Below, piece after piece: positions 6,596 through 60,858 of a DNA stretch of 64,000 nucleotides. This stretch comes from Chrysopilus asiliformis. Its lineage: Eukaryota; Arthropoda; Insecta; Diptera; Rhagionidae. The stretch's first letter is position 1; each line of letters starts with the position of its first letter. The stretch spans positions 37,020,361-37,084,360 of the forward strand of contig OZ035963.1 of NCBI GenBank assembly GCA_964034945.1. The letters run 5' to 3'. A model generated the notes under the pieces. It saw only the letters and a program-made list of their open reading frames with translations, had not been told where the DNA came from and searched no databases. The position numbers and the translations under genes were made by a program.

Positions 6596-7738
6596 TCAGA
6601 AGCGGGGTGATTGACCTTCTATAAGAGATTTACACCAAGGAAATGCATATTTTTCAATATAGAAGTGTTCACGATATTGATTTATTGCAACGTACTCCAT
6701 GCTGGGTTCTATGAATCTTGCTTCATTGCCATGTGGAGTTGGCATGGGTATTACCTTGAATAGGTTGAAGACTTCGTTATTCACCAGAGGGATTTCGATG
6801 TCAAATATTAGGAATTGTTCCGAAAAGTGTGATCGTGCGTTCATAAGCTGGTACAATTGCGTAATTTCTAAATTTTTCGGCAACATCAGATTTTGTGGCA
6901 GTTTTTTCCTGATGATGCTCAACTCCCTTATAAGTTGTTCGGAAGTTATGATTAACTGACTCATTCGACTGTGATGAAGGTCTGTAACTAAGTCAATCAA
7001 TGCACGCTGTTGCTGATATTGAGCAACAATTATAGATGATCTCAGAGACCAGTAGGAAAGGATTTGTGTGACCCTTTGTTTCTGTATTTCATCCGATAAG
7101 GCGTTGAATTCCGTCATTACCAATGCAATTTGTCCACTTAAAGTTTCAAATTGTTTTTGCATTTGCTTGTGTTCTTTGTCTATCATATTAGCCGTGGTTT
7201 CAAGTATAGATATTTGGTTCTCCATTAGTGCTAGTAGATGTTCTTCATTTTTATCCACTTGGTTTATGGTTTCGGCCATTTGTTTTGCGTAGTCTTCATC
7301 GAGTACGACAAATAAGTAGTTGGCTGCAGACCCAACAATGTTCATTAATCCACGCTTATGCCGACCTTTATGCATGTGTAACAACGCTTCATTGTTAGTC
7401 CGGATAGCCCTAACTTGAATGTCGAATTGGTTTAGGATGCCTTCGCAATACACTTGATATGCTTGTGTCTGATTACACTTTTGATGCAGTCTGTCTAGTT
7501 TTGTAACAAATCTTTCGAGTTCTCCGTAGAAGGAACTTGTATCATAGTATACCACCAAGTTCCATTTGTCTGTGACCACGTGTACTTCTCCTAACTGCTC
7601 GAAGAATATGCCTGGACGGTGGGTGAACCTTTGGATGTCAATGGGACTGGACCCTACATTACTGCAAGGTGTTAACGCTAGCAGTACTATCAATGCTATG
7701 CTAAACAGATTTGCCTTACGTTTTGGGGCGTTGATCAA
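6596..7738 (-). CDS. env: Envelope (F-like) fusion protein of an insect BEL/Pao retroelement
   Basis: The 380-residue frame resembles baculovirus F / errantivirus-type envelope proteins. Visible features are a hydrophobic N-terminal segment (residues about 11-24, signal-peptide-like), paired cysteines at about 88 and 98, a basic furin-type site RHKR at 126-129 followed by a glycine-rich fusion-peptide-like stretch, a long helical region, and a C-terminal part ending near PWCKSL. No transmembrane anchor follows before the stop, so the frame is truncated relative to typical family members. The frame continues upstream of 7738 without an ATG at that point; the listed start is not a true ATG. It lies directly downstream of a DUF5641-type pol end, the order seen in env-bearing BEL elements such as Drosophila roo. 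Probably a decayed copy. Confidence 0.8.
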   Translation of the reverse strand: MINAPKRKANLFSIALIVLLALTPCSNVGSSPIDIQRFTHRPGIFFEQLGEVHVVTDKWNLVVYYDTSSFYGELERFVTKLDRLHQKCNQTQAYQVYCEGILNQFDIQVRAIRTNNEALLHMHKGRHKRGLMNIVGSAANYLFVVLDEDYAKQMAETINQVDKNEEHLLALMENQISILETTANMIDKEHKQMQKQFETLSGQIALVMTEFNALSDEIQKQRVTQILSYWSLRSSIIVAQYQQQRALIDLVTDLHHSRMSQLIITSEQLIRELSIIRKKLPQNLMLPKNLEITQLYQLMNARSHFSEQFLIFDIEIPLVNNEVFNLFKVIPMPTPHGNEARFIEPSMEYVAINQYREHFYIEKYAFPWCKSLIEGQSPRF

Positions 7739-7770
7739 GGGTGAGGTATCCCGTTTCTGCTGTGCACGTT

Positions 7771-8049
7771 CTAACCACTTAGGATTGATGGCATCTTCAA
7801 GCCGTTTCTTAGTTTTTTAGTCGGCGATGATCCTTGTTGCGGTTCGTCAAACTTGTCTGTCGTCAATACGGGGAGGGGACATACTCGGGGAATGGCACGT
7901 TTTGTGATTCCCTTGGCAGTTTTTAATTCTACTACTCTGATTAAATTGTCCTTTTCGGGGTGCACATTTAAGACCCGTGCCATGGGCCATTTTAACGACG
8001 GTATATTGTCTTCCTTCAAAATGAGATTTCCAGGAGAGATTTCTCTAAT
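7771..8049 (-). pseudogene. BEL/Pao pol C-terminus (DUF5641-like), copy 1
   Basis: The minus strand reads ...LKEDNIPSLKWPMARVLNV, then VVELKTAKG and a CPLPV motif. This is the signature of the DUF5641 domain at the C-terminus of BEL/Pao polyproteins. Only this terminal domain remains; upstream pol is replaced by AT-rich sequence after about 8055. The env frame follows in a different frame. Confidence 0.75.
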
Positions 8050-15482: not shown

Positions 15483-16775
15483 ACACATGGATCAATAAGT
15501 CCCGAGACTAACCCAGAGATGACGCTCGTAGTAAACCAGTAACCACGTCTTTCTAGAGTACTAACCTTTGCTTGAAACGTGTCAAAATTTTAAGTCGATC
15601 GGACCAGAAACAGCTGAGTTATCGAGGTTGGAGTAAAGTCGTTTTGTAGTTTGTTTAAAAAATGGAAAAAACCGAGTTTCGTGTTCTGATAAAACATTGT
15701 TTTTTAATGGGTAAAAACACCGTGCAAGCGAAACAATGGATTGAAAAATGTTACCCGGACTCTTGTCCATCAAAAGCAACGATTTGTCGGTGGTTTGCCG
15801 AGTTTAAACGTGGTCGTACCGACACAAATGACGCGGAACGCTCGGGTAGACCTGTGGAAGCCGTTACACCGGAAAATGTGAGTGAAGTGACAAAAATTAT
15901 AATGAAAGATCGTAAAGTGAAGCTCCGTGAGATTGCTGAGATAACACAGATATCATATGGAAGTGCATTTACTATCCTTCATGAAAAATTGAGCATGAAA
16001 AAGGTTTTTTCCAAGTGGGTGCCGCGATTGCTTTCGATGGAACAAAAACAGCAACGAGTCGATGATTCAGAAAGCTGTTTATCGCTATTTACTCGCAATA
16101 AAAAAGATTTCTTGCGTCGTTACGTGTCCATGGACGAAACATGGATACATCACTACACTCCAGAGTCGAAGCGGCAGTCATCTGAGTGGCGCACAGCTGG
16201 CGAAAGCCGTCCGAAGCGTCCGAAAACGCAGCAGTCAGCTGGCAAAGTCATGGCGTCAGTTTTTTGGGATACGCATGGCGTGATTTTCATTGACTACCTC
16301 GAAAAAGGTAAATCGATCAACAGTGATTATTATATTGACTTGCTGGTGCGTTTGAAGGAGGAAATCGCAAAAAAACGACCGCACATGCAGAGAAAAAAAA
16401 TCCTTTTTCACCAAGGCAATGCACCCTGCCACAAGTCGATGAAAACAATGGCAAAATTGAACGAATTGGGCTTTCATCTGCTTCCCCACCCCCCATACTC
16501 GCCAGATTTAGCCCCCAGTGACTACTGGCTCTTTGCTGATCTTAAAAAAATGCTCCAGGGAAAAAGATTTGGCTCAAATGAGGAGGTCATCGCTGAAACT
16601 GAAGCTTATTTTGAAGCGAAAGATAATTTTTTTTATAAACATGGTATTGAAAAATTGGAAAAGCGTTGGAACGATTGTATCACCCTAAAAGGTGATTATA
16701 TTGATGAATAAAAAAAAATTTGGCAAAAAAAATGTTGTTTTCATTGTTAGTCTCGGGATTTATTGATCCATGTGT
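15483..16775 (+). mobile_element. mariner element, complete
   Basis: 30-bp terminal inverted repeats ACACATGGATCAATAARTCC... (15,483-15,512 and 16,746-16,775) have one mismatch. The insertion is at a TA dinucleotide duplicated on both sides (15,481-15,482; 16,776-16,777). The transposase frame is uninterrupted. The element sits inside the N-terminal coding part of the Harbinger transposase. Confidence 0.95.
15662..16711 (+). CDS. mariner transposase with a lost catalytic Asp
   Basis: A 349-residue frame, normal mariner length, starting at an ATG 149 bp inside the left repeat. The N-terminal helix-turn-helix domain spans about residues 1-115 (CRWFAEFKRG; GRPVEAVTPENV). In the DD34D core the first Asp is in SMDETWIHH and the third in SPDLAPSDYWLF. 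The second, normally in HQDNAPCH, is replaced: codon 252 (16,415-16,417) is GGC, giving HQGNAPCH. Transposase cuts and rejoins the element ends in the nucleus using metal ions held by the triad, so this copy should be catalytically dead although unbroken. Confidence 0.95.
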   Translation: MEKTEFRVLIKHCFLMGKNTVQAKQWIEKCYPDSCPSKATICRWFAEFKRGRTDTNDAERSGRPVEAVTPENVSEVTKIIMKDRKVKLREIAEITQISYGSAFTILHEKLSMKKVFSKWVPRLLSMEQKQQRVDDSESCLSLFTRNKKDFLRRYVSMDETWIHHYTPESKRQSSEWRTAGESRPKRPKTQQSAGKVMASVFWDTHGVIFIDYLEKGKSINSDYYIDLLVRLKEEIAKKRPHMQRKKILFHQGNAPCHKSMKTMAKLNELGFHLLPHPPYSPDLAPSDYWLFADLKKMLQGKRFGSNEEVIAETEAYFEAKDNFFYKHGIEKLEKRWNDCITLKGDYIDE

Positions 16776-19887: not shown

Positions 19888-20385
19888 ATATATCATTATA
19901 TTTTTATAATATATGGGTTATTTAATGTTATCATTTTGCAGATTTTTATCATTACAGAATCTTTACTATTTTTATAATTATCAACAAGTGCTACTTTATT
20001 TCTTGATTTTGAAATAATAAGAAACTTTCGTTAGGGATTTATAATAATCCTCTTTTTTAATAATCCTCTTTTTTGTGCTATTGGTATCATGTTATACAAT
20101 TTATAAACTTCTTGATCTGTAATTGGTACTTTGATTATGAAAACTAATCTGTCATTTTGGATGTAGCATACAACTTCAGAAATCTTTAACAATAAATAAA
20201 TATTTTCTTCTTTAAGTGATATTGGATAAAAGACTCTTACCGATAATCTTGTGATTCTAATAGTTTTGATAAATATTTTTTCATTGGTATAATTGCTGGA
20301 TGTATTTCTCCGGTTTTGACAAACATTACAACGTGTGTAAGCACATTTAAATCTATTTCTGTTTCAATGGTAATTGTATTAAATT
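19888..20385 (-). pseudogene. env: Errantivirus-type envelope scrap
   Basis: Between about 20,035 and 20,385 the minus strand encodes two overlapping-frame pieces. One has VMFVKTGEIHPAIIPMKKYL; the next has YIQNDRLVFIIKVPI and VYKLYNMIPI. These match the C-terminal ectodomain pattern of insect F-like envelope proteins (compare FDIEIPLVNN...LFKVIPMP in the BEL env). There is one frameshift near 20,240 and a stop near 20,035. It is fused at about 20,385 to hAT transposase. It is probably the 3' end of Gypsy-B. Sequence 19,888-20,034 has no recognised frame. Confidence 0.6.
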
Positions 20386-22068
20386 AATCAAGTATCGCCG
20401 CTCAAATTCTGAAATTACTTTGTCTCTGAATTTTCTAGCCGTTTCAGACTGACAAATTGCTTTTTTTAACTGTTCGCGTCCACAGTGCACCAGAGGAATT
20501 ATTTGGCTCAAAGTTCCATATTTTTCACCACTTACTTGTGTGGTCATCGCTTCCAACGGCCTCAATACGGAAATGATCTCAACCAGGTTTTCTTTCTCCC
20601 TTGGAGATATCATAGAAGGCGCATCTACATGATTAAGCGTAATTTGGCTGATGTATGGTAGCAATTTCAAAAATCGTTCCAACATGAAATAGCAAGAATT
20701 CCACCTGGTCTTCACGTCCAAAATGAGCTTTAAAAATTTTCCTTCTGGTATTCCATCATTTGATTGAATTTTGCGAAGTTCGTCATTTGCATTTACGTGA
20801 CGTTTCATCCAGGTCACAATATCTCTGCACTTTGAGATAAGGACTTTAATTTCTGGCACATCCAAGGAGTTTTGACACACAAGATTTAAGGTGTGTGCAA
20901 AGCATGGGACGTGTTTATGCTTTCCAAACTCGTCTACAACGGCTTTCACAATCTTGGCTCCATTGTCAGTAACAAAAGCTACTATTTTTTGCGGGCTTAT
21001 TTCAAAATCTACCAGGATTTGTCTTAAAACAGTAGATATATAAGTAGCTGTATGCGATTCCGCCAATTTAAAAACTCCTATTGTTCCGGCAAACATTGAA
21101 GTGTTCCTTAGACCATGCACTGTTACACCTAACATGCTGTTCATTTGCGTATCGGTCCAGATGTCAGCAGTTAGACACAAATATGGAACCTCTTTAAAAA
21201 AAATCATGAAATTTTTCATTTCTTTTTCATATAAATTATCTATGTGGGCTTTAACAGTGTTTCTGGTGGGGACCTTGTATAGTGGAGAGGTTTGCTTCAT
21301 GAGAGCTTTGAACCCTTCTCCTTCAACAAAATTAAAGGGCAAGTTATCTTTAATTAACATTTCCACGATTGCCTGTGTCAATTTTACATTTTTCACTCCG
21401 CCAGCTAAAAAATAAAATTTTTGTTGATACATCATACATCTCATACATATTCATATGGATAGGTACATAAATATTTGAATAAATTACAAAAGTATTGTTT
21501 ACGTTATAATTTCGAAAAAATTGCAAAAAAATGTGGAAAAAATATACGCAAAAAATGTTCTGTACCTGTATACATTATATTTAGATTTTGATACCTACAT
21601 GTGTAACTTTCAATGTTGGAAAATATGTTTGGGAGGCTTGCGACACTAGATGGTTTATGCTGGTCATTTTCTTTATCGTTTTCCCTTGTGCTGCTGCTAC
21701 TTGGTACATTTTTATTAAAAATACTCCTATTGTCTGTACTTGAAGTACTTCTCATTGGCAAGCTTACAGTTGGGTCTAGGGTTGGGGCGCTCCTATTGTC
21801 GATTGCGGTGCTCTTCCTGGTGCTGCTAGTTGCCTGTGAAATACATTTTGAAATTGATGATGCTTAAAAAAATATTTAAAATATGTTTCTTTACCGAATT
21901 TAACCCTTCCTCATTAAGAAGGTAATCCTGGTGCTTCAGTTTTAAATGTTGCTGCATATTTGTTGTATTATTTGAAGCTTTAAATGTTTTGAAACACAAG
22001 TTACACTTCACTGTCTGATTGTCCAATCTTATAAAATAGTTCCAAACCTTGCTTTTTGGAGGAGCCAT
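20386..22068 (-). pseudogene. hAT transposase (BED finger), 3'-truncated, spliced
   Basis: Exon 1 (22,068-21,895) starts MAPPKSKVWNYF and has a BED zinc finger (CNLC...HLKLKH). Intron 1 (21,894-21,834) and intron 2 (21,607-21,405) have GT-AG ends and preserve frame. Exon 2 (21,833-21,608) is a Ser/Asn-rich linker. Exon 3 (from 21,404) is the RNase H-like core, with the first acidic residue in LTADIWTD, the second in VTDNGAKI, and CFAHTLNLV. It stops after SEFERRY near 20,385, where envelope sequence begins. The final catalytic Glu and dimerisation domain are gone. BED-hAT transposases excise DNA in the nucleus. Confidence 0.8.
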
Positions 22069-27123: not shown

Positions 27124-28044
27124 CAGGGTGCGCCATCTATTCCTCCGGTATGAGAATGTTGAATAACTTTTGAAAGAAACAATAGATTGCAAAAAATGGT
27201 GTTTTTTTATTTAGTTCAATCCTTTACAATTTATGTGGACTACCTTTTGAAAACAACATCGATCAAATGACCACCTTTATTGGCCACCGCAAACTGTGCT
27301 CTTTTTCGGGCATTTTCCATCACTTCTTCGAGCATCTCCGTCGGTATGGCAGCTATTTCGGCACGAATATTGGTCTTGAGCTCGTCAATGGTCTTCGGGT
27401 TGCTGGCGTAAACTTTACTCTTCAAATAACCCCACAAAAAGAAGTCTGGGGGGGTTAAATCAGGGGATCTTGGTGGCCAGTCAATATCGCCTCTTTTCGA
27501 TATCACACGTCTAGGGAATTTTTGTTGCAAAAACCGTATTGTTTGGTCCGCTGTGTGGCATGGCGCCCCGTCTTGCTGAAACCAGAAGTCAGTCAGACCT
27601 TTTTCACGCATTTTCGGACACACAAAATGTGCCCACATCCACCGATATCGATTACCATTAACTGTTTCACCTTCATTGAAGAAAAATGGCCCAATGATGG
27701 TTTTTGCGCACACGCCGGCCCAAACAGTCACTTTTCGATCATGCAATGGTATTTCATGAATCTCGTGAGGATTTTCTGTCGCCCAAATGCGGCAATTTTG
27801 TTTATTAACACCGCCAGAGAGAGTGAAATGTGCCTCGTCGGTCATTAAAACTTGCATCCAAAAGTCCGGCATGGTTTCCAACATACATCGTCACTATTTC
27901 GGCGCGTTCTTTCGGTGTGAAGCGGTTCATGGTTAAAATTGTACTGGTTTGACGTTTCCAAAACGTGTCTAGGAAAGCAAATCGGTTGACAAATGGCGAA
28001 GTTATTGAATGTTTACATACCGGAGGAATAGATGGCGCACCCTG
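27124..28044 (-). mobile_element. DD41D mariner-like element, internal deletion derivative
   Basis: Terminal inverted repeats begin CAGGGTGCGCCATCTATTCC, with TA duplicated at 27,122-27,123 and 28,045-28,046. At 921 bp it is about 300-400 bp shorter than full Tc1/mariner elements. It lies within the Gypsy-C integrase. Confidence 0.9.
27240..27884 (-). pseudogene. DD41D transposase catalytic domain
   Basis: The frame carries MTDEAHFTLSGG (first Asp), WFQQDGAPCHTA (second) and PDLTPPDFFLWG (third), with 41 residues between the last two. That spacing is the DD41D (rosa-like) arrangement of the IS630/Tc1/mariner group. The normal N-terminus, MNRFTPKERAEIV, is present in another frame from about 27,931. 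A deletion between them removed the roughly 110-residue helix-turn-helix part and shifted the frame, so it cannot make a working transposase. Confidence 0.8.
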
Positions 28045-28046
28045 TA

Positions 28047-31000
28047 TATCTTGTAATAATTTGTTCATAGAATGCTTTAGCCACTGTCTCAGCTTCACAA
28101 TTTTCTATTGCAACGCAATCGAAAAATCGGGTTAGGTCATCCTGGAACGTGAGAAGATATTTATTTCCCCTATTGGTTACTGGAAGTGGACCGACTATAT
28201 CTAGATATACTTTGTCAAAGGGGAGTAGTGCCGTGTCTGTAATGACCATTGGCATACGCGTGTAGCGTGAATATTTGTTTACTTGACAAAGTCGACAACT
28301 TTTGACAAAGTTTTCGATGTCTTTCACCATATTTTTCCACCGGTAATGGCGTCTTATTCGGTGGTAAGTTTTGAAAACTCCTTGGTGTCCACCTAGAGGA
28401 CTATTGTGATAGGTCGTGAGTACAGATTCTATTTCTTTTCGGTCAGTTAATTGCTGAATATTTTTTGTGGAAATAACTGGGTCAATAGAATCATCTAAAG
28501 TTTCACAATTATTACCTTGTTTACTTTTTTCATGAAGTTGCATTTCATCGTTTTCAGGTGCATTGTCTTCCTGTAATTGCTGAATTGCAGTTTTATCATT
28601 CGAGTTAATTGTTGTTGTACTCTCACTTTGATTTGGGTTTTCTATCTGTTGTTTATTTTGTTTACTTTGGCTTCGAGTTACAACTTGTATTCGTTGATGA
28701 TTGTTGGTCGAATCGTTTATTTTATTCCTCACCTCTTGTTCCTCAGTTTTAATCATACCGCTGTGTTGTGATACATTTTCATGGATTGAAGTTTTTGTGC
28801 TTTCGTTGAGCATTGTCTCTTGGGTTTTTTCGTATTGTTGTTGTTGGAACGTTGTATTTGGATTTGTCGTACTTTTGAGTGAGGGCATTCTACTCAGCGC
28901 ATCAGCTGCAGTATTTAATTTACCTGCCTTGTACTGAATTTCGTAATCGTAATCGGATAATTTGTGACGAAAACGTGTAAGACGAGTTGTAGTGTCCTTG
29001 ACATTGAACACTCCTTTTAGAGGCCTATGGTCGGAGTAAACGATGAATTTACGTCCTAGTAAATAACATCGAAAATGTTTAGTAGCCCAAACTATTGCCA
29101 GCAATTCTTTCTCTATTGTTGAATATCGGCGTTCAGCCTCATTCAAGGTTCGGCTAGCGTAGGCTACTGGCCTTTCGTCCTGCGATAGTATTGCTCCAAG
29201 TGCTTCTCCACTAGCATCTGTGGTTAACGCAAATGGTTTAGAAAAATCTGGATATACCAGAAGAGGTGGAGATGTTAAGGCTTCTTTTAGTGTTTCGAAT
29301 GCCTTTTCACATGATTCATTCCACGCAAATTTACTACCCTTTCGAAGTAATTTCGTGAGAGGTAAGGCTTTTTTGGCAAAGTCTTCAATGAATTTTCTAT
29401 AATAATTAGCCAGTCCTAAAAAACTTTGAATTTGTCGAATAGTTTTTGGACGCGGGAAATTCTTTACACATTCTATATTTTGGGGATCGGGGAGAGCGCC
29501 TTCTTTCGTACATTTGTGTCCTAAATAAATTACTTCCTTTTTGAGGAAGTGACACTTCTCGGGTTGCAATTTGAAATTGTGGATTCTGAGGCGTTCGAAA
29601 ATATCCATCAATTTTTGGTTATGGTCATCTAGGGTTTTCCCGTAAATGACCAAATCATCGATGTATATGAAACACTTTATTCCTTGTAACCCTGTCAAGG
29701 CGTGATTCATAGCCCTTTGGAATGTAGCAGGAGCCGATTTTAATCCAAACGGCATCCTTGTAAATTCGAAATGACCAAAAGGAGTACTGAAAGCTGTTTT
29801 TTCTCTATCGTTTGGCTCAACTTGAATTTGATGGTATCCGCTAGCTAAATCTAGTGTGGTGAAGTAAGTGGAGTTTCCCAACTGGTCCAGAATCTCTTCG
29901 ATTCTAGGCAGTGGAAAAGCGTCTCCAATAGTGACGTCATTCAGTTTCCTGAAATCCACCACTACTCTCCACTTCTTCTCACCGTTTGCTCCCGCTTTCT
30001 TAGGCACTACTAAGAGAGGGGAATTCCAGGGACTTTTGCTAGGTTGGACTATTCCTTCTTCCACCATTTTATTAACTTGTTCGTTAATAACTTTCCGGTG
30101 GGTTTCGGCCAAACGATAATTCTTTAAATTTAGAGCTCCTTGGTCCTGACGTATGGGTATTTTATGTGTAAGAACGTTAGAATGTGTTAATTTATCATTG
30201 GGAAGATGAAAAAGATCATGAAATTGCGAACAAATGTTTATTATATACTGGCGTTCTTCGTGATTTGCCTCTGGATCCATTTGTATGGATTCGATAATTT
30301 CCCGAATCCTTTTATATATAGGAGATTTAAACCGGTTAGTCTGGCTTAAATTTTCTTGACATGAAAAGATTTTGAAATTTTTTGCTTTCACAATTTTTAG
30401 GGGTATTTTATTCAAAGTTATTTGGTAGGTATTTGAGTTCAGAATGCTAACCGTAATCTTCCCATTTCGGGGCCGAACTAGAGTGTTAGCTACGTACACT
30501 CCTTCAGCGATTTCCCTAGACATACAAAGATCTTTATTCCCGTTTTGGATTGGTACTTCGATCACCTTTTCCGTTCGTGGGGGTATTATTAGATTAGTTG
30601 GACAATCGTAAATCTTTTGAGAAAATTTTTGTTTTTCGGAAGGATTATAATCATTGTTCAGATTATATCTTTTGGTTGAGTTAATGTCCGTATGTGCGGT
30701 TTTGTTTTCCGCTAACGGCTTAAAAATTTGAATGTTGAGTTCCTTTTCCAAAATTTTGCACAAATTTCTAACATCATCTATATTTTTGATAGAATTCCCT
30801 GTGTGGTTAGAGGGAAAGTTAATTGTTTGTATTTGAGTGATATTTTTAGGTTTGTTTAGATTACTTGTAGATTTGGTTGACGAGTTAGCAGTGCTTTTTG
30901 ATGGAACCAATTCAAATTGGTTAGGTTTTGACCATGTTGCCTTCCCGATTCGTCCTGTACGACTTGGTTGTGAAATTTTCGCTATCTCGGCGTAAGATTT

Positions 31001-31980
31001 GGATGATTGGGCCACGGCATTTTTTGCACGTGGATCCGAACCTACGGTAGATAGATCACAAGTGACTAGGTTATTCCATGTACCTGACCTTGATAATACC
31101 TTCTGAGTCGTGATCTCAGATTTGGTTGTTTTGTTCAAGGGGTTATTGGAATTTTCTAGCTGTTTCACTTGTAGTGATTTTGGATTTTCAGAAGTTTTGT
31201 AAATCGGTTTATGATTACCGACCTGACCATTTTCAGTATGAGCTTTCGATATTTGGACCAAACCCTTTTTTGAGCTTGGATTCGAATTTGCAATCGTTTG
31301 AGTTTGAGCCGTTTTACTGTTATATCGACCTGTCCTTAGCATCACTTTCTGAGTCGCGATTTCAGATTTTGTGATTTCGTGCAAGGAGTCATCTATAAAG
31401 TCAAATTTAAACTCGTGCTCTGATTGCAGCGCTTCTATTGCTGGAAAATGGAGTCGTTTCATAATACAATCGATTCTACTTCTATTCCATAAAATATCCC
31501 TTCCTATGATACCATCGCAAGGAACCGATTCATTATCGTTGACTACGTGAAAATGACAAGTCAACGCTTCTTTATTTGGGTCTCGCATTACAGCCGTCAT
31601 TTTGGCTTCACAGATGCCTATCGATCGTTCAGATGCACCGTATAAACCAGTCAGAACTACTAGTCTATTTCCGTTAATCGGAGTACCGGGTTTCAAGATC
31701 GATCGTCTAATTAGACTTACATCTGCTCCTGTATCCACCAAAAATTGAACTGGCTTTTTACAAGCGATGTCAACATCCGCGGTTATTACGGCCTCGCGAT
31801 ATAGTTTTTGGTATGGGAGAATTATTTCAGTAGTAGGCATGGGGTCAATTTTCTTTTGGGGTTTTGATTTTTTGAGAGATAATTTAGCATTTGCATGTTT
31901 CGTAGCAGTGGTTGTATTTTTAGGTTTACACCCCTTTTTGGCTTGGTCTGAAGGTGGGTGCAGAGCTTCAAACCCTATTG
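28047..31980 (-). pseudogene. pol: Gypsy-C pol: protease, RT, RNase H, integrase N-terminus
   Basis: The frame opens at the slippery site and continues without stop for about 1,310 codons to the mariner insertion. In order: protease FLVDTGADVSLI with GIIGRDIL; a long Ser/Asn-rich linker; reverse transcriptase with WRVVVDFRKLND and the catalytic YIDDLVIYG; RNase H (TTDASGEALGAIL; YSDHRPL; AADALSRMP); the integrase zinc finger (CRLCQVNKY); and the first catalytic Asp (YLDIVGPLPV). The polyprotein copies element RNA and inserts the DNA. Only the mariner breaks it. Confidence 0.95.
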
Positions 31981-33852
31981 GTTTCCCTGTATTGATGGGA
32001 GATTATTTTGAGAGCCTGAATTAGTTCTTTGTTCCCATTTTCGTTTTGAGGGACACTGATTTATAGTGTGGGTGTCTCGCTCACACCAATCACAGCGTTG
32101 AGGTTTTAAGATCTTATTTTGGCTTAAATGTATTTGTGCTTGGTTTCGTTTTGGTGTTGAAGTTTGGAAATTTGAATTAGGCGTTTGTTTCCAACAGCGA
32201 TCTGTGCTGTGGCCATTAGTTTGGCAATTAGAACAGAAGTATTGCCTTGTTCGGCAATTTTGGTATTCGTGTCCTAATCGTTTACAAAAGCTACATGTTG
32301 TATTTTTCTTGAAACTTTGAACATTTGTTGATTGATTATTAGGTTGAGGAAATCTGCTAAAATTTCCTAATGGATTTTGGTGAAAACCTCTGCTTGTGAT
32401 GTTTTTAAATGGGGAACTTGAGTTAGGGCAAGGTTGAATTGTAGTACTAGTTGAATTAGTTGAGTTAGGGAAATTAGAGAATTGTTGGGTCCAATTAAGT
32501 GCATCAGACATAATTGAAGATTGTTCAAATGATTGATTCATTCTTCTACCTTTATATGCCTTTAATTCGTTTTTTTCTATGGTGTCAGCTAGAATCATGA
32601 GTGATTCCATTTTGTCTAGGGTACTACTTATTAAAGCCTGCCGTATGGTAGGACTTAAAATTCCTACTCGGTAGGTGAATCGAACTTCCTCTTCGATTTC
32701 CTTAATAAGAGCATAACTCCCTTCCGGATATTTTGCTTGGACTGTATTATACATTTCGGTATGGATTTTTATTAATCGACATCCGAAAGCTTGAACAGTT
32801 TCCCCGGGACTTTGTGCACACCTTCGTAATTCGGCATAAAAATCATCTAAAGACTTAGTGGGGGCATAATATGTGAGCATCATATTTTGAAAATTTGAAA
32901 AACTAGTAAAGGAATGTGAACCGATTAGGCTATATGCATTCCCTTGTAATTTGAAACGTAAAACTGATAGGAATGTGGGAACAGCATCGGCTGTTAATGT
33001 GTCATGGATTTGCTTTACACAATCTAGAAATCGTCTCAAATCCATTTCCAGTGTCGGGGTCCTTTCTCCAGTGAAAACTGGGACCATCAGACTTACTAAC
33101 TTGGAAATTTCCATTAACGACATTTTATTGGTTTGATTTTCTATTTTAATATTTTTTCTAGACAGCAAATTGTCTACCCGCACAATAAATTCTTGAATTG
33201 ACTTAGATACGTTATTAATTTGCTGATCGGTCAGCTCTAAAAATTCGGAATTTTGACTTTTAATTGAATTTACAGAGTCTTCACTATCTAAGATTACAAA
33301 ATCGTTATTATCCCTATCTAGTACTATTCTATTTCTAAAGTTTATAATATTATCAAATTTTTCGCTTACTGTTTTGTGATTGTCTGATGAAGTTTTTTCC
33401 GGGGATTTGCTGCTTCTTTGATGCGCTTCTACTCGTCTAGATGCTGACACTTGTTCTGCTGCACTTCCGTTAGTGATGTTAGATACTGGTATGCTGGATA
33501 CTGGACAGTTGTCTCCTTGCCTTGGGTTGATACCGCTGGGTCCGGGTTGTGGGTTCCTGAAGGTGCCGAATAGATTTTGTAGAGTGTTGGATGCGCCGAA
33601 AAGTTCCTCAATCTCTTCTTGTAGGTGATGTGAAATTTGTTCGAATGGGATGCTGGCGAATTGCTGTACCTTTCTTGCGGTGTTGCTGTTGTCCTTCTTT
33701 GGAGTTGATTTCTGTTGCGCTTCTTTGGAGTTGATTCCGCGGTTGAATTCCTCTGAACTTATGGATGAGCTCTCTGCTTGTGGAGTTTTGTATTTTCTCG
33801 TAGCGCGTCTTCTCGGGTTTCTGCGAAGAAATTTCCGTAGTGTATCTGACAT
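31975..33852 (-). CDS. gag: Gypsy-C gag
   Basis: An intact 625-residue frame from an ATG at 33,852. The N-terminus is basic and Ser-rich, then a capsid-like region (about residues 240-400, including ELRRCAQSPGETVQAFGCRL). Three zinc knuckles follow: CSFCKRLGHEYQNC, CSNCQTNGHSTDRC and CDWCERDTHTINQC. Gag binds and packages the element RNA. The stop TAG (31,975-31,977) lies two codons after a -1 slippery heptamer. Confidence 0.9.
   Translation of the reverse strand: MSDTLRKFLRRNPRRRATRKYKTPQAESSSISSEEFNRGINSKEAQQKSTPKKDNSNTARKVQQFASIPFEQISHHLQEEIEELFGASNTLQNLFGTFRNPQPGPSGINPRQGDNCPVSSIPVSNITNGSAAEQVSASRRVEAHQRSSKSPEKTSSDNHKTVSEKFDNIINFRNRIVLDRDNNDFVILDSEDSVNSIKSQNSEFLELTDQQINNVSKSIQEFIVRVDNLLSRKNIKIENQTNKMSLMEISKLVSLMVPVFTGERTPTLEMDLRRFLDCVKQIHDTLTADAVPTFLSVLRFKLQGNAYSLIGSHSFTSFSNFQNMMLTYYAPTKSLDDFYAELRRCAQSPGETVQAFGCRLIKIHTEMYNTVQAKYPEGSYALIKEIEEEVRFTYRVGILSPTIRQALISSTLDKMESLMILADTIEKNELKAYKGRRMNQSFEQSSIMSDALNWTQQFSNFPNSTNSTSTTIQPCPNSSSPFKNITSRGFHQNPLGNFSRFPQPNNQSTNVQSFKKNTTCSFCKRLGHEYQNCRTRQYFCSNCQTNGHSTDRCWKQTPNSNFQTSTPKRNQAQIHLSQNKILKPQRCDWCERDTHTINQCPSKRKWEQRTNSGSQNNLPSIQGNQ
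31981..31987 (-). promoter_or_regulatory. Gypsy-C -1 frameshift slippery site
   Basis: The minus strand reads CAG GGA AAC CAA TAG in the gag frame, so G GGA AAC is a canonical -1 heptamer just before the stop. The -1 frame is open from here into the protease. Confidence 0.75.
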
Positions 33853-47667: not shown

Positions 47668-48630
47668 GCCTTATTCAGTCTCCCACGGAGAAGCAAAGTA
47701 TTCATCCATTGACAAAACGGGGATGTCATTTCCAGTAAGTATATCCTCAGAAACAATTTTAACGTTTGTCAAATCGACGTTCTCTTCATCAATCCATTCA
47801 GCATCTTCATATCCTTCCTGCACAGCAATTATAGCCATTAATTCACGTTGTCTTCGGGCTGCAACATGCAATGGCATAGTTTTTTTTCACATAGATCGAT
47901 GATTTGTGGTGGACACTTTTGACATGATCTTTCAGCATCACTTGAGGAGCAAAGTACATTTCACAACTTGAGCATGTTCTATCTTTCAGAACATTTTGAA
48001 CTGAAGGACAATATAAATCGTACGGTAAAGATTTCGGTGGTTGTTCAATTATAGATAATAAACATAAGTTGTTCAATAAGAACAATGGGCAAAACTTGAC
48101 GTTTCACCACTTTTTCTATCGGTGGCAGCTTTCAATCCATTATTAGTTTGGATAAGTGGAATTGGTGGTGGTAAAAATCTCTTTTTGTTCATTACAGTAA
48201 AGTAACTACTTCTAGGTTTTGCACAACAATTTTGATTATCACACTTAACAATCTGAGTGCAATATTGACTTGTTTGAACATGTCTAGAGAACCATTCTGA
48301 ATTTTTGAACAAAATATTTTCCTTTGGGATTTCCGATTTATCTGGTTCGATATATTCAGCAACTGTAGCACAGTTATCAATAGTCATACTACTCCAGATT
48401 TGTGAGAGAGTCTCGCCTGCAAATTTGAAATTTTGCTTTTCTAATTCAGTATCATTTGTATGTCCGTGCTCGTCTAACTTCCAAAATGACTGTACGGTAA
48501 AATTACTCCTGATAACTCACGACTTAAAGGCGCCATTCTTCGTTCCACCCTGTTGAATGCACTGCGTCCAGGAGCATTTGTAGCTATAAAAAGAGCATCT
48601 ACGTCATGCTTCAAAAAATGATGAAGTTAA
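47668..48630 (-). pseudogene. Decayed copy of a multicopy arthropod gene with C2H2 finger
   Basis: Minus-strand pieces in several frames: HHFL...DVDALFIATNAPGRSAFNR and RRMAPLSRELSGVILPYSHFG; then IWSSMTIDNCATVAEYIEPD and KKRFLPPPIPLIQTNNGL; then YDLYCPSVQ with a C2H2 finger (CSSCEMYF...HVKSVH). It ends ELMAIIAVQEGYEDAEWIDEENVDL. I recall similar uncharacterised proteins being repeated in arthropod genomes, probably mobile-element derived, but cannot name the superfamily. At least three frameshifts break it. It abuts LINE-A at about 48,610-48,630. Confidence 0.5.
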
Positions 48631-49752
48631 CAATTTTCTCAATAACTTTAGCTTCCAATATAATAGTGTTCACTGGCCGAAATTCTTCACATTTTTTTGT
48701 ACCTTTTATTTTTTCTACAGGTACAACTATTGTTTCTTTCCAAAACTCTGGAAAACAACCACTTTCTAGTGACTTATTAATAATAGATAGAAAATTTTCA
48801 CCAATAAGATCAAATGAGTCAATCAGTAATTTCACATTCACAAAGTTATTATCTTTCTTGTTGTTCATACTTTTTAAGGTGCTTTTTAGTTCAGTTAATG
48901 TTACATAACTAAATTTAAAATTGTTATTACCTGACTCAATTAAATTGCTATAAACCATATTATGAATATTTTTATGAATATCATATACACTGTTTACGAA
49001 ATACTCATTAAAGTTATTGGCAATTAGTTCATTATCTTTAATTATTTCATTGTTGAATTTAATTTCTTTAATTTCAGGAGGTCTTTTATTAAAAACATAA
49101 GTTTTAATATTACGCCACATAGTCTTTTGGTCATGTGAATTATCAATTTTATCCCGAATAAACTTATTTTTAGCATCATTAATTTTTTTAGTATACAGAT
49201 TTCTTAACGATTTGTATTTATACCAATCGTAGCTTCTATTTGTCCATACTGCTAAGTTATATTGGTTGTTTCTTTGTAGTTTTAACATTAAAAGATCTTT
49301 TGTAAACCATTCATTATCAACAGCATATAACGATTTTGTGACAATGAATTCATTTATAATATTATGCAATGATAAACTAAAATTTCTTGCTTTTAAGTCA
49401 CAATCACCAAAGTAAATGGTCATTATAGCATTTCTAAGAATTTTACTTCTAAATTGATCCTTATTATATCGTAGAATCTTTGTTGATTTAAAGTCATCGT
49501 TAACTGTTTTGTCATTTTTAATTTGAAACATAATTTTTATAGTTTCATGATCACTTATTTTTAGGTTTGATTCAATTTTTACTTCAATTCTTTCATAACA
49601 ATTTGACACCACCCAGTCTATTAATGTTTTTGAAGTTTGAGAAATACGTGTATGGTCATTTACTATTTGCTTAAATAAATTCTCTTCAAAAATTTCACTA
49701 ATTTTCATTTTAAAGTTATCATCTTTCAACCAGTTTATATTAAAGTCTCTTA
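48611..49752 (-). pseudogene. LINE-A ORF2: endonuclease end and reverse transcriptase start
   Basis: Begins within the endonuclease (DFNINWLKDD; LIDWVVSN...SDHETIK). It passes through the linker to the first reverse transcriptase block (FPEFWKETIVVPVEKIKGTK; EEFRPVNTI). It is cut off after KVIEKIVNF at 48,611, so the catalytic YADD part is missing. Frame intact otherwise. Confidence 0.8.
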
Positions 49753-49880
49753 CGGCCAATTTATTCACTAGGAGTTAAATCGCCTTAACTCCCTTAACTC
49801 ACCTTTAACATGGAAAATAAGGTTAGCTAACTCCCTTAACTCACTAACTCGGCTTAACTCCTAGTGAATAAATTGGCCGC
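49753..49880. mobile_element. 128-bp palindromic MITE in the LINE-A endonuclease
   Basis: Terminal inverted repeats of about 26 bp begin CGGCCAATTTATTCACTAGG. TA lies on both sides (49,751-49,752; 49,881-49,882). The interior repeats 'cttaactcccttaactcac'. It splits the endonuclease between IILA and VRDFNINW. Confidence 0.8.
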
Positions 49881-50288
49881 TAATATTATATCATTCTGAC
49901 TTAACTCTTCTAATTGACCAATATAAGAGTTTATTTTAACGAAAAAATCAGAGTTTAGATTTAAATATTTGGGTGATCGGTATATCTTGGCCACATGAAA
50001 TACATTACGGGCATAGGATATTTTTATATGTAACCACCACATTGACTGATTCGAACTTGTGCTATTAATGGTCTCAAAGCTCATGGAGTCCTTTATATAT
50101 AAAATAACACCACCAGTATGCCTCGAGTGACTATCCACTCTAACAAAATTGTAACCATCAATATGTATTAAATCTCCGTCATCATCTTCTGTTAAATGAG
50201 TCTCAGTCAAGCAAACCACATCGACACTTCTTCTCAATATTAGCTCTTCAAGTTCCACAAAATTTTTAAATAGCCCTTGGGTATTCAT
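49881..50288 (-). pseudogene. LINE-A ORF2: AP endonuclease N-terminus
   Basis: From an ATG at 50,288: MNTQGLFKNFVELEELI, then VVCLTETHLTED (catalytic Glu motif), HTGGVILYIK and VAKIYRSPKYL. This is an APE-type endonuclease that nicks the target DNA. The frame ends at the MITE. Confidence 0.8.
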
Positions 50289-50304
50289 ATAAAATATCTC
50301 GATA

Positions 50305-50482
50305 TTATTTAATTGCTAATATAAAATTTTATTTGACTCAATTTTAAGCTTTTTTTGTAACACTTTACAGTCATTGCTGTACGCATGATGAGAGGTATCA
50401 CATTCTTCGTCACTTAAGTTCAAACTCTCTTTTACTTTTTTGCAGTTTACACAAGAACAATGTCACTAACACATTCGCTTGC
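50305..50482 (-). pseudogene. LINE-A ORF1, C-terminal zinc knuckle
   Basis: Reads VCVNCKKVKES...HHAYSNDCKVLQKKLK and a stop near 50,318, just before ORF2. It is the last zinc knuckle of ORF1, separated from the others by the MITE at 50,491. Confidence 0.6.
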
Positions 50483-57207: not shown

Positions 57208-57378
57208 CTCCCCCTTTTAAAAAAGAAAAATGCAATTTTTCTAAAAAGTTACAATGGGGGATTTACTTTATTCTTATTATTTAATTTCTTATTTTATTTA
57301 ATTTTTTAATCATTTTACACATCTATAAATATTTTTTTTTTAAATCTTTACAGTGAGCTCATTTTTTTTTGTTTTATA
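57208..57378 (-). other. Gypsy-E 3' flank before the inserted element
   Basis: Purine tract and AT-rich sequence without a frame. It ends in TATA (57,375-57,378), one copy of the target duplication of the next element. Confidence 0.45.
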
Positions 57379-58103
57379 CACTCTCGAAAAAATGGAGTCG
57401 ATTACGCACCGAAAGGGAGTTTGAGGGAGTCCATCACCTTTTGGAGAAAATCCAACTCCGGGCCAAGTAGTTGCACGGTACTTCTTTTAGGTGCAATTAT
57501 TTTTGAAATTTTTAGGAGTAGCTGAAACTTTGTGTTTGACGCTACTGATTAATACTTTTGTGGTGTGTATCACACACTTCGAAGGTGCAATTTTCCAACT
57601 CCTCCTGGAGCATAAACAACTCTTTCTTTTAGTAAATTTTCCCTGAAAAGGAGTTAAATAAGTAACTACCTGGATGTGTTGCCGAAACTCTAGAACCGGA
57701 GTTTCTTTAATTACCTCGTGTATGTGCTTCTGTAACTCTGAAAGAGGAGTTAAATATCTCGCTCTCAACAGGTGTTTTTTTTATTCTGAAAAAAGGTTTA
57801 AAATATCCCCTGTCACTGCGTTCTTGTTAATAAAAAACTTTTTTAACGACACATAGGTACTTTAATTCATTTGTTATTACATTGTTATGTGTTATTACAT
57901 TGTTTAATTCATTTGTTATTACATTGTTATGACTTATATTAATCTACATGTGATATATGTGTCTATTGGGTTCAAAACGAATCTATTCCATTTTTGAAAA
58001 AAATGAAGTTACGATTGATTTTGGTTCCTACTGTTGGTTCCCACGACTTACTTAACCATTCGTTATGATCAAACCGATTTTATACCGTATAACATATAAA
58101 CTA

Positions 58104-60368
58104 TTACAACATAATTTTTGGAATAACATAAAATTTATTATCCTTGTAGTTTGAATGTACTTCAAAAGAATTTTTAATTTTTACGCTTGACAATTTTATT
58201 AAATTTTTTTCCCCTGTAGATTTAATCTCATATCCGAATACAATGGTTTTATCATAGTTTATTGTGTGATACTTCGTTGTAACAAAAAAAAAATCGTTCT
58301 TCGCCTCAACAATAAAATTAATTTTTTCAAACATAGGCCAATTTTTATAGTCCGAGAATGTTGCTAAGAAAAACCCACGTTTATATTGAAAACCACAATG
58401 CAAGTATTTTAAAATTTTTATTTCATCAGTTGATGATAGTTTAAAATTTTTTAATATGTAATTTACTGTGTCATCAAATGGAGAATTTTCTATATAAAAA
58501 GTATTTTCTACTACTGTATTTACTTCAACGGCAAATTTGTTTAAAATATATCTTGGACCATAAAACTCTTGATGAGCGGCCGCTAAAGTTTTACATATAT
58601 AAATTATAAGTATATTTATTGTTTTTTTTAATGTAATTTTTTACCAATCCTGGCGTATCCAAAAATTTGGGAAATATTGTCATGCGGATTGTTTCGTCGT
58701 AAGCCAATGGTTCTTGCTGTTTTTTCAAAAATCTCCTTTCTCTGTAAAATAGGGTATGCGTGTTTCAGAAACAATATGTCGTCCGCAAACGTGTTTTCCT
58801 CGAATAATTCTACAGCGGTCTGTGTTTTGACAGCTTTGTTGGTTTCATATCTTGAAGGACCGCAAGTTGATGTCCTATTTAAAGTTTTCAATTTATTTCC
58901 TAGGTATCCAGTTCGAGTAATTGGATTATAGAGCAAATACTACAGAAAAAATAGATTTAAATTCGTACAAAACTTTGAAATTGCATTTTACTTACATAAT
59001 TATTTTCACCGCTTCCACATAATGAAGGAAACAATGCTGCTAGTCCTTGGGCATACTCAATTTTCTCTGTTTTTGTAGGGTGGTTTCCCGCTTCTGCAAT
59101 TAATAAATTGGTGACAACGTCAACCAGTCGCCTTCTTGATGAGTCGCTTAACGTATTTGATGTGTCATATTCACGAAGAATATTCTGCCCAGTTTTAGCT
59201 TTGCTTAGATTCTGCCGAAGCTCCTTTAAAAATGGCCCTTTTTTATAAATAAAAGTGAAAAATATCTTTAGTTGTACCTTGGCTAAATGCTATTGAATTA
59301 AATTTTTGTCTTTTCGGAGCATTTTCATCAAAAAAATTCGACGGTCTTAAAGGTTGAACAAGTTGATCATAATTGCAAACCGTATCTGGGTCAGTTTGAC
59401 ACTCACAATCAGACGTCAGATTTTCAAGAGTATCTTGTGTTTGAGTTCCGACACTCTTTAATCGTGCTGCAAAATTATAAATAATTGCTATATGTTTTCT
59501 GAAAAGGTTTCAATTGATGACTGTAACTAGTAAAGACCCTCTCGCTACAGAAATAAGGTTTTACAGGTATTACAGCAAAATGCACCCAATATTTTATTTT
59601 AAAAATTCACAAAATCAATTTGCCCAAGCAACTTCAAAGAAGCACTACAATTCTATAATAAACAATTGAAAGTTTAGTGCAAGTACAAAATCTTTGAAAA
59701 ATTCTTTTGTATATTGTAATACATGAAACCCTCATGTAAACATATCCGAACGCGCGTCTGGACTGGTTCTCCAGGAGTCGAACCGCAGACGCCGGCGTCC
59801 AGTAGCCAATTGCGATCGGCCGGACGCCGTGAAACAAACCGGCAACACATATGATCATAAAACTACTCGATTTCAACGATCGCCGCGTCCAAAGGTGGGA
59901 CAGACAGACAGACTGACAGACAGACACACTGGCTGACAGACAGACAGACACGAAGGCAAGCTAAATACAAGCTTTTAAAAAATTACCATTTTTGATAAAA
60001 TTGCAAATAACTGTTTCGTTTGTGTATAACACTCAATAAATGTATAAAATAATAAATACCTTCGTTAATCACCTGGCGCAATACAAAAATTTCATCCGAT
60101 TTTGTCGGATCTCGCAAGAATAATCCAAACACTTCCTCATCGATTATTGCCCCTTCCGTGTCCGAAATCTCATGAAAAAAATTATCATTAATCGCCAAGT
60201 GGAACTTTTCGCAAGCTGAAATCAAATTTATGTAGATCGAAATATAAATATTCTATTATAAAATATACCTGATAATATCAAATCGTCTATTGTAGTCAAA
60301 TCGGCAGAGAAAACCACAAAATACCGTATCACCGTGTTGTGTTTTACACGAAAAACTCTTTGACTCAT
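58104..60368 (-). CDS. Six-exon gene of unknown function, about 486 residues
   Basis: Exons: 60,368-60,269; 60,215-60,060; 59,466-59,278; 59,237-58,996; 58,939-58,645; 58,582-58,104. All introns are GT-AG and phases match, giving 487 codons including the stop. Exons 1-2 (MSQRVFRVKHNTVIRYFVVF...GAIIDEEVFGLFL) resemble a ubiquitin-fold domain of CIDE-N/PB1 type. Exon 4 has RRRLVDVVTNLLIAEAG and EYAQGLAALFPSLCG; exon 5 has LLYNPITRTGYLGNKLKTL. The last exon has a beta-rich-looking region (FEKINFIVEAKNDFFFV). Similar uncharacterised proteins, some labelled SAMD3-like, are many-copied in fish and invertebrates as far as I recall. The 40-bp fourth intron is short for an insect. Role unknown; perhaps a transposase or accessory protein. 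Confidence 0.65.
59560..59955 (-). repeat. tRNA-derived SINE with GACA microsatellite, in intron 2
   Basis: On the minus strand GGTTCGACTCC (59,769-59,779) is an exact Pol III B box within a GC-rich tRNA-like block (about 59,740-59,830). The plus strand has a (GACA)n run at 59,897-59,953. It interrupts only intron sequence. Confidence 0.6.
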
Positions 60369-60858
60369 ATTTTTTATGTCTCGTTTACAAAGCGACTCGG
60401 GAAATACTGAGAACAAAACCAAATTTTAGGGGGAACTTACATTTAAAGGGAGCTAATTCAACTCCGATTACTGGCAAAACCGTTGAAAATGCATTCTTGT
60501 TCTTCTTACACTTAACTGTAAATTTCGTTTCGTCGGCGATGGTTGCAGGTGGCATCTAATCGAAGGAAATTCAACTCCTATTAGATGCAAATCTTGCACC
60601 ATCGGATATTGCGGTATACATGCCTTTTATAGAAGTTGAATTAACACATATTAGGGGTAAAATCGAATTTTTTTTTGTAGTGAAAAGTTTTTGGTGTTAT
60701 CGGAGTTAAAAAAAACTTTTTACTCCGCGCCGAAGTTATTTCAAATTTACTCCACGCTGTGGTGTAAAATTTTTCAGGTTTAGCACCGCTTGTCGTTAAA
60801 TTTATGCTATGTTTTCGGGCGGTGTTACTTTGTCCCCGGATTTTTTCGAGAGTGTATA

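Follow-up and report, generated by a model that had tools for sequence, protein, structure and literature searches.

Positions 57379-60854 of the window, the whole 64-kb stretch of DNA that was analysed, were found to be a copy of a CAC-ended DNA transposon that has subterminal sites in clusters and carries a coding gene, a conclusion that is well supported. The reading that we prefer, with a confidence a little below even, is that this is a cut-and-paste CAC...GTG element which carries an accessory gene only, encoding a TnpA-like helper. Since no transposase signature was found and clusters of motifs in mixed orientation lie at both ends, a helper fits better than a novel transposase. The preliminary description of this DNA had left the choice between a novel transposase and a helper binding the AACTCC arrays; judging from the sequence, the second option appears the better one and the first lacks a signature.

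The element spans 3476 bp, and the outer 15 bases at each end form perfect inverted repeats, CAC...GTG, with CACTCTCGAAAAAAT at 57379-57393 on the plus strand and at 60840-60854 on the minus strand. The sequence outside the ends reads TTGTTTTATA on the left and TATATATTAA on the right. Inverted 15-mer pairs no more than 20 kb apart are abundant in this window (542, versus a mean of 4.5 in dinucleotide shuffles), and given the low shuffle mean most of them are genuine repeats or simple sequence. However, the pair bounding the element is the only one in the window to combine a CAC start with 4-bp flanks that are equal on both sides, and no such pair was obtained in 40 dinucleotide shuffles of the window, which confirms the perfect 15-bp terminal repeats described before. 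TATA is indeed present on both sides, as had been noted, at 57375-57378 and 60855-60858, and might be a target-site duplication. Because TATA is its own reverse complement, though, a 4-bp duplication is one of three equivalent readings, the others being a 2-bp TA duplication and a 19-bp terminal repeat (TATACACTC...). A further copy of the element was not found within the 64-kb window, where blastn of the element against the remaining sequence gave just three matches of 32-43 bp, all of them simple repeats. The right end had no match in plasmids. The 15-mer end was matched once each in 41 viral contigs and twice in none, and these matches were dismissed as chance.

Adjoining both ends are arrays of a short motif. 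The left array, which is 3' of the gene (57379-57778), contains six GGAGTT in both orientations, at 57416+, 57454-, 57597-, 57650+, 57698+ and 57746+. Four of these belong to a longer site, GGAGTTRRAWW, which came from an alignment of all nine hexamer sites in the element and is fitted by seven of them. The other three are in the right array, 5' of the gene (60455-60854), at 60460-, 60573- and 60702+, where the motif is embedded in imperfect repeats of 24-39 nt. Six and three hexamers in the terminal 400 bp of the left and right sides therefore account for all nine, with none in the intervening 2676 bp, and the clusters of AACTCC/GGAGTT reported near both ends are borne out. In 1000 shuffles of both ends none reached nine GGAGTT/AACTCC, the maximum being four. 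The longer site occurs eight times in the full 64 kb, seven of them within the terminal 400 bp of the element and in both orientations, but as it was extended post hoc from the sites themselves its P=1e-16 cannot be taken at face value; GGAGTT, having been named beforehand, makes the fairer test. The position of these arrays, next to both ends and absent between them, also argues against the explanation that ends and gene are unrelated, the repeats having paired by chance or arrived with another insertion. This we regard as very improbable, given also that the pair is the sole one of its kind in the window and was missing from all 40 shuffles, even if a palindromic TATA flank in AT-rich DNA favours it and one copy alone is no proof.

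Between the arrays lies a gene modelled with six exons on the minus strand: exon 1 at 60269-60368 (ATG 60368-60366), exon 2 at 60060-60215, exon 3 at 59278-59466, exon 4 at 58996-59237, exon 5 at 58645-58939 and exon 6 at 58104-58582 (stop codon 58106-58104). The coding sequence is 1461 nt including the stop and encodes 486 amino acids. All introns are GT-AG, with lengths of 53, 593, 40, 56 and 62 nt, and reading through any of the five brings an in-frame stop. The gene fills the room between the arrays, with 486 and 725 bp remaining on its two sides. Additionally, the stretch 60369-60555 contains an upstream ATG, at 60555, whose frame would continue into exon 1 if a 34-nt GT-AG gap were spliced out, so the protein might begin earlier, in which case the motif at 60460 would be coding.

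Splicing by hand proves little in AT-rich DNA of this kind, because about 900 nt of open frame can be reached by free splicing through chance. For this reason the model was compared with the best spliced frame (up to five introns) in 2000 dinucleotide shuffles, which had a mean of 904 nt, an SD of 117 and a maximum of 1419 nt; none of the 2000 reached 1461 nt. On the other hand, 29 of 35 tiles of equal length cut from the window, of which two overlap the element, also reached 1461 nt by free splicing, so that spliced length alone fails to separate the gene from its coding-rich neighbours; mobile elements with genuine open reading frames make up most of the window. The composition of the coding sequence by codon position is uneven (chi2 53.7, P=8e-10, compared with P=0.002 for the window's mariner ORF as a yardstick), and G is the commonest base at codon position 1 in all six exons. 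Exon by exon, the periodicity is significant in exons 3 and 6 and not individually in exons 1, 2, 4 and 5. Intron 2 and both subterminal regions, each assayed in one frame, showed no significant periodicity. From the shuffle control and the codon periodicity we conclude that the gene is coding. The earlier claim of six exons in phase over 1,461 nt is upheld by these two results, but whether the gene is intact hinges on the 40-nt intron 3.

This intron (59238-59277, GTACAA...AAAAAAG) is the weakest splice call of the model. If it is in fact a frameshift, the gene is decayed or mis-modelled and the copy is dead, an explanation that we consider quite unlikely. Its short length, weak donor and A-rich acceptor, together with the stop on read-through, are what that explanation would predict, and longest-frame models with four, five or six introns bypass it. 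However, the seven-intron longest-frame model uses exactly intron 3, and the adjoining exons 3 and 4 are both open with G commonest at codon position 1.

Intron 2 (59467-60059, 593 nt) carries a GC-rich block with a TCTG-repeat tract at about 59717-59966, where five 50-bp steps from 59717 have a GC content of 0.46-0.60 while the other seven have 0.20-0.38. The free-splicing optimum of the element is a five-intron model of 1725 nt running through this block. We discarded it, as the block has a foreign composition (54.5% GC versus 33.9% for the element) and the codons of the six-exon model are periodic. The block contains GGTTCGACTCC, which we take to resemble the B box of tRNA genes, and may be an inserted SINE-like piece. 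A tRNA search found none, and Rfam gave nothing on the window and two matches at chance level on intron 2. A sigma-70 promoter scan was set aside, the model being a bacterial one.

The preliminary description had also argued from the condition of the surroundings, in which everything was said to be broken. This is contradicted by a mariner ORF at 15659-16708, which is open over its full length. The argument from broken neighbours is thus weak, and an open gene less remarkable than had been claimed. The ORF matches HTH_48, Transposase_1 and DDE_3, and runs, with methionine as its second codon, to a stop. When ten long ORFs of the window were compared with Pfam, seven matched families and three did not, the families being reverse transcriptases, integrase domains, copia gag, a Baculo_F envelope, DUF659 and mariner. 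This repertoire suggests an arthropod genome. The open 1329-aa pol ORF at 28016-32002 matched protease, RT, RNase H and integrase zinc-binding domains; having no match to the integrase core, the element that bears it may be interrupted. Within 28016-33852 it overlaps an ORF of 625 aa that matched nothing in Pfam. The envelope domain (Baculovirus F, E=1e-33) is in an ORF at 6599-7816, as in the errantiviruses of insects, and DUF659, which occurs in hAT-type transposases, is in a 365-aa ORF at 20356-21450. A short near-palindromic insert at 49753-49879, whose arms CGGCCAATTTATTCACTAGGAGTTAA also contain GGAGTTAA, is flanked by minus-strand ORFs at 48614-49774 and 49857-50315, which we interpret as pieces of a single non-LTR element; the first of them had no match in Pfam.

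Searches with the 486-aa protein did not assign it to a family. At full length it matched no Pfam model, and no transposase model among them, at E up to 5, nor any NCBIfam model at E up to 10, so the statement that the gene has no recognisable transposase stands. Homology searches of a protein database accepted no relative for the whole protein (E<=0.001, 6497 word-sharing candidates), for residues 150-349 (E<=10, 870 candidates) or for the 179 aa of exons 4 and 5 (E<=10, 69 candidates); the share of animal proteins in this database is unstated, and these results are consequently weak evidence for an orphan. There was no match to the whole protein in the PDB, no match to the protein pattern in viral contigs, and no relative encoded by the 31 stretches of prokaryote genome contigs that fit a short pattern. 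In the window outside the element, tblastn gave nothing below E=1.4, and no transposon with such a protein was found among the titles and abstract openings listed by keyword searches of open-licence papers. With the first 85 residues, the PDB search returned two bacterial polyketide synthase chains at E about 1, discarded as chance. A link to the SAMD3-like proteins, a multi-copy animal group, was not taken as evidence either: a single fish sequence gave a local score of 76 versus a shuffle mean of 59.8, and 37 of 500 shuffles scored as high, which is not significant. Within the collections searched, the protein appears provisionally to be an orphan.

When the protein was searched in pieces, Pfam gave DUF7610 on exon 4 (E=0.079, below the cut-off) and, on the first 85 residues, CIDE-N (PF02017) with E=0.11 and 13 bits versus a cut-off of 23.5, which is short of the gathering score. 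The CIDE-N alignment joins residues 4-72, supplied by exons 1 and 2 and spanning their junction, to profile positions 2-65 of 76 (64 of the 76). One of nine shuffled controls equalled this score, against another family and over a short stretch, and for that reason CIDE-N stays a lead, compatible with chance. In one published study, CIDE-N is reported to be over-represented alongside transposase domains in two Hydra genomes, with counts of 10 and 7 versus 1-3 in five other cnidarians (PMC7642931). The parallel is suggestive only. Residues 1-150 are acidic (pI by segment 4.8 and 4.4) and residues 150-486 are basic (8.9, 9.5 and 9.0). The linker in exon 3 contains KRQK, similar to a nuclear signal, at residues 137-140, and two of the three QT motifs (residues 94, 109 and 269), which resemble those bound by dynein light chain. 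Exon 6 had no family match. Structure prediction from the single sequence was unusable (mean pLDDT 31.5 for exon 6 and 54.8 for exon 5), and no DNA-binding fold was recognised.

The ends of the element are intact and no other gene was found between them, so the protein could itself be a very divergent transposase, making the element autonomous and the founder of a new lineage. We think this unlikely. As such divergence would predict, the family models gave nothing above cut-off and the three protein searches no homologue, but the protein has no match to C-x2-C, H-x3-H or H-x4-H, which are reported as motifs of the CMC/Transib group (PMC12730594), and no transposase model recognised it even at E up to 5, while the window's mariner ORF was recognised at 1.3e-23. 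Five introns and no transposase signature would also agree with a Pack-type capture, in which a non-autonomous element has picked up a gene of host or foreign origin that plays no part in transposition. Captured genes are usually fragments, however, whereas this one fills the space between the arrays and its frame is still open, and we judge capture rather improbable.

On the preferred reading, that of a helper-only copy, the 56-kDa protein would enter the nucleus and its basic part, residues 150-486, would bind the GGAGTTRRAWW sites. The acidic, perhaps ubiquitin-like N-terminus could then link the bound molecules and so pair the two ends, on which a DDE transposase supplied by another, complete copy would act. 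The element itself would derive from a complete one by internal deletion or splitting, and would move only when transposase is supplied from elsewhere. Against a helper stand the lack of a recognised DNA-binding fold, a CIDE-N score below cut-off, four of six exons that are not significantly periodic singly and the 29 of 35 tiles; likewise, no further copy came to light, and neither a complete relative nor an empty site. A bolder proposal, to which we give a really small chance, is a new animal lineage founded by a CIDE-N/ubiquitin-like protein with no DDE core, which would coat the GGAGTTRRAWW arrays and use either an unrecognised chemistry or hijacked transposases of unrelated elements. If other copies share both ends and gene, animals would have in this element their own counterpart of a helper-only transposon that coats motifs. 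Its protein and its 11-bp site, both defined, could then be used to ask how helpers that are not transposases pair transposon ends, and one of the kinds of orphan gene that occur in many copies in animal genomes could be named.

Among known systems, the ends agree with those of the Chapaev-Mirage-CACTA (CMC) group, including Chapaev and animal EnSpm, for which two papers give 5'-CAC...GTG-3' ends, with a target-site duplication of 3-4 bp in Chapaev and TWA in Chapaev3 (PMC4079192), and 2-5 bp in the wider group (PMC12730594). The TATA/TATA flank is compatible with such a short duplication but, being palindromic, equally with a longer terminal repeat. Animal TRC/CACTA elements begin with CCC according to a third paper (PMC1636069), and they and Chapaev3 differ from the CAC start and TATA flank found here. 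CMC/Transib elements are described as having a DDE core with C-x2-C and H-x3/4-H motifs (PMC12730594), and since the product here has neither a match to a transposase model nor these motifs we did not file the element as CMC. A complete relative of it could be a CMC member.

A further likeness is to En/Spm, where short motifs in many copies and in both orientations are placed near both ends. Clustered short motifs of both orientations are likewise present near both ends of our element and, by analogy with TnpA, a gene that is apparently not a transposase lies between them. En/Spm requires two proteins, TNPA and TNPD, and TNPA on DNA is stabilised by TNPD (PMC1636069). Our element differs in having no TnpD-like partner, and the likeness is one of architecture, with binding of the motifs being putative. 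Maize En/Spm also has derivatives that carry TnpA only, and these are the parallel for a helper-only element.
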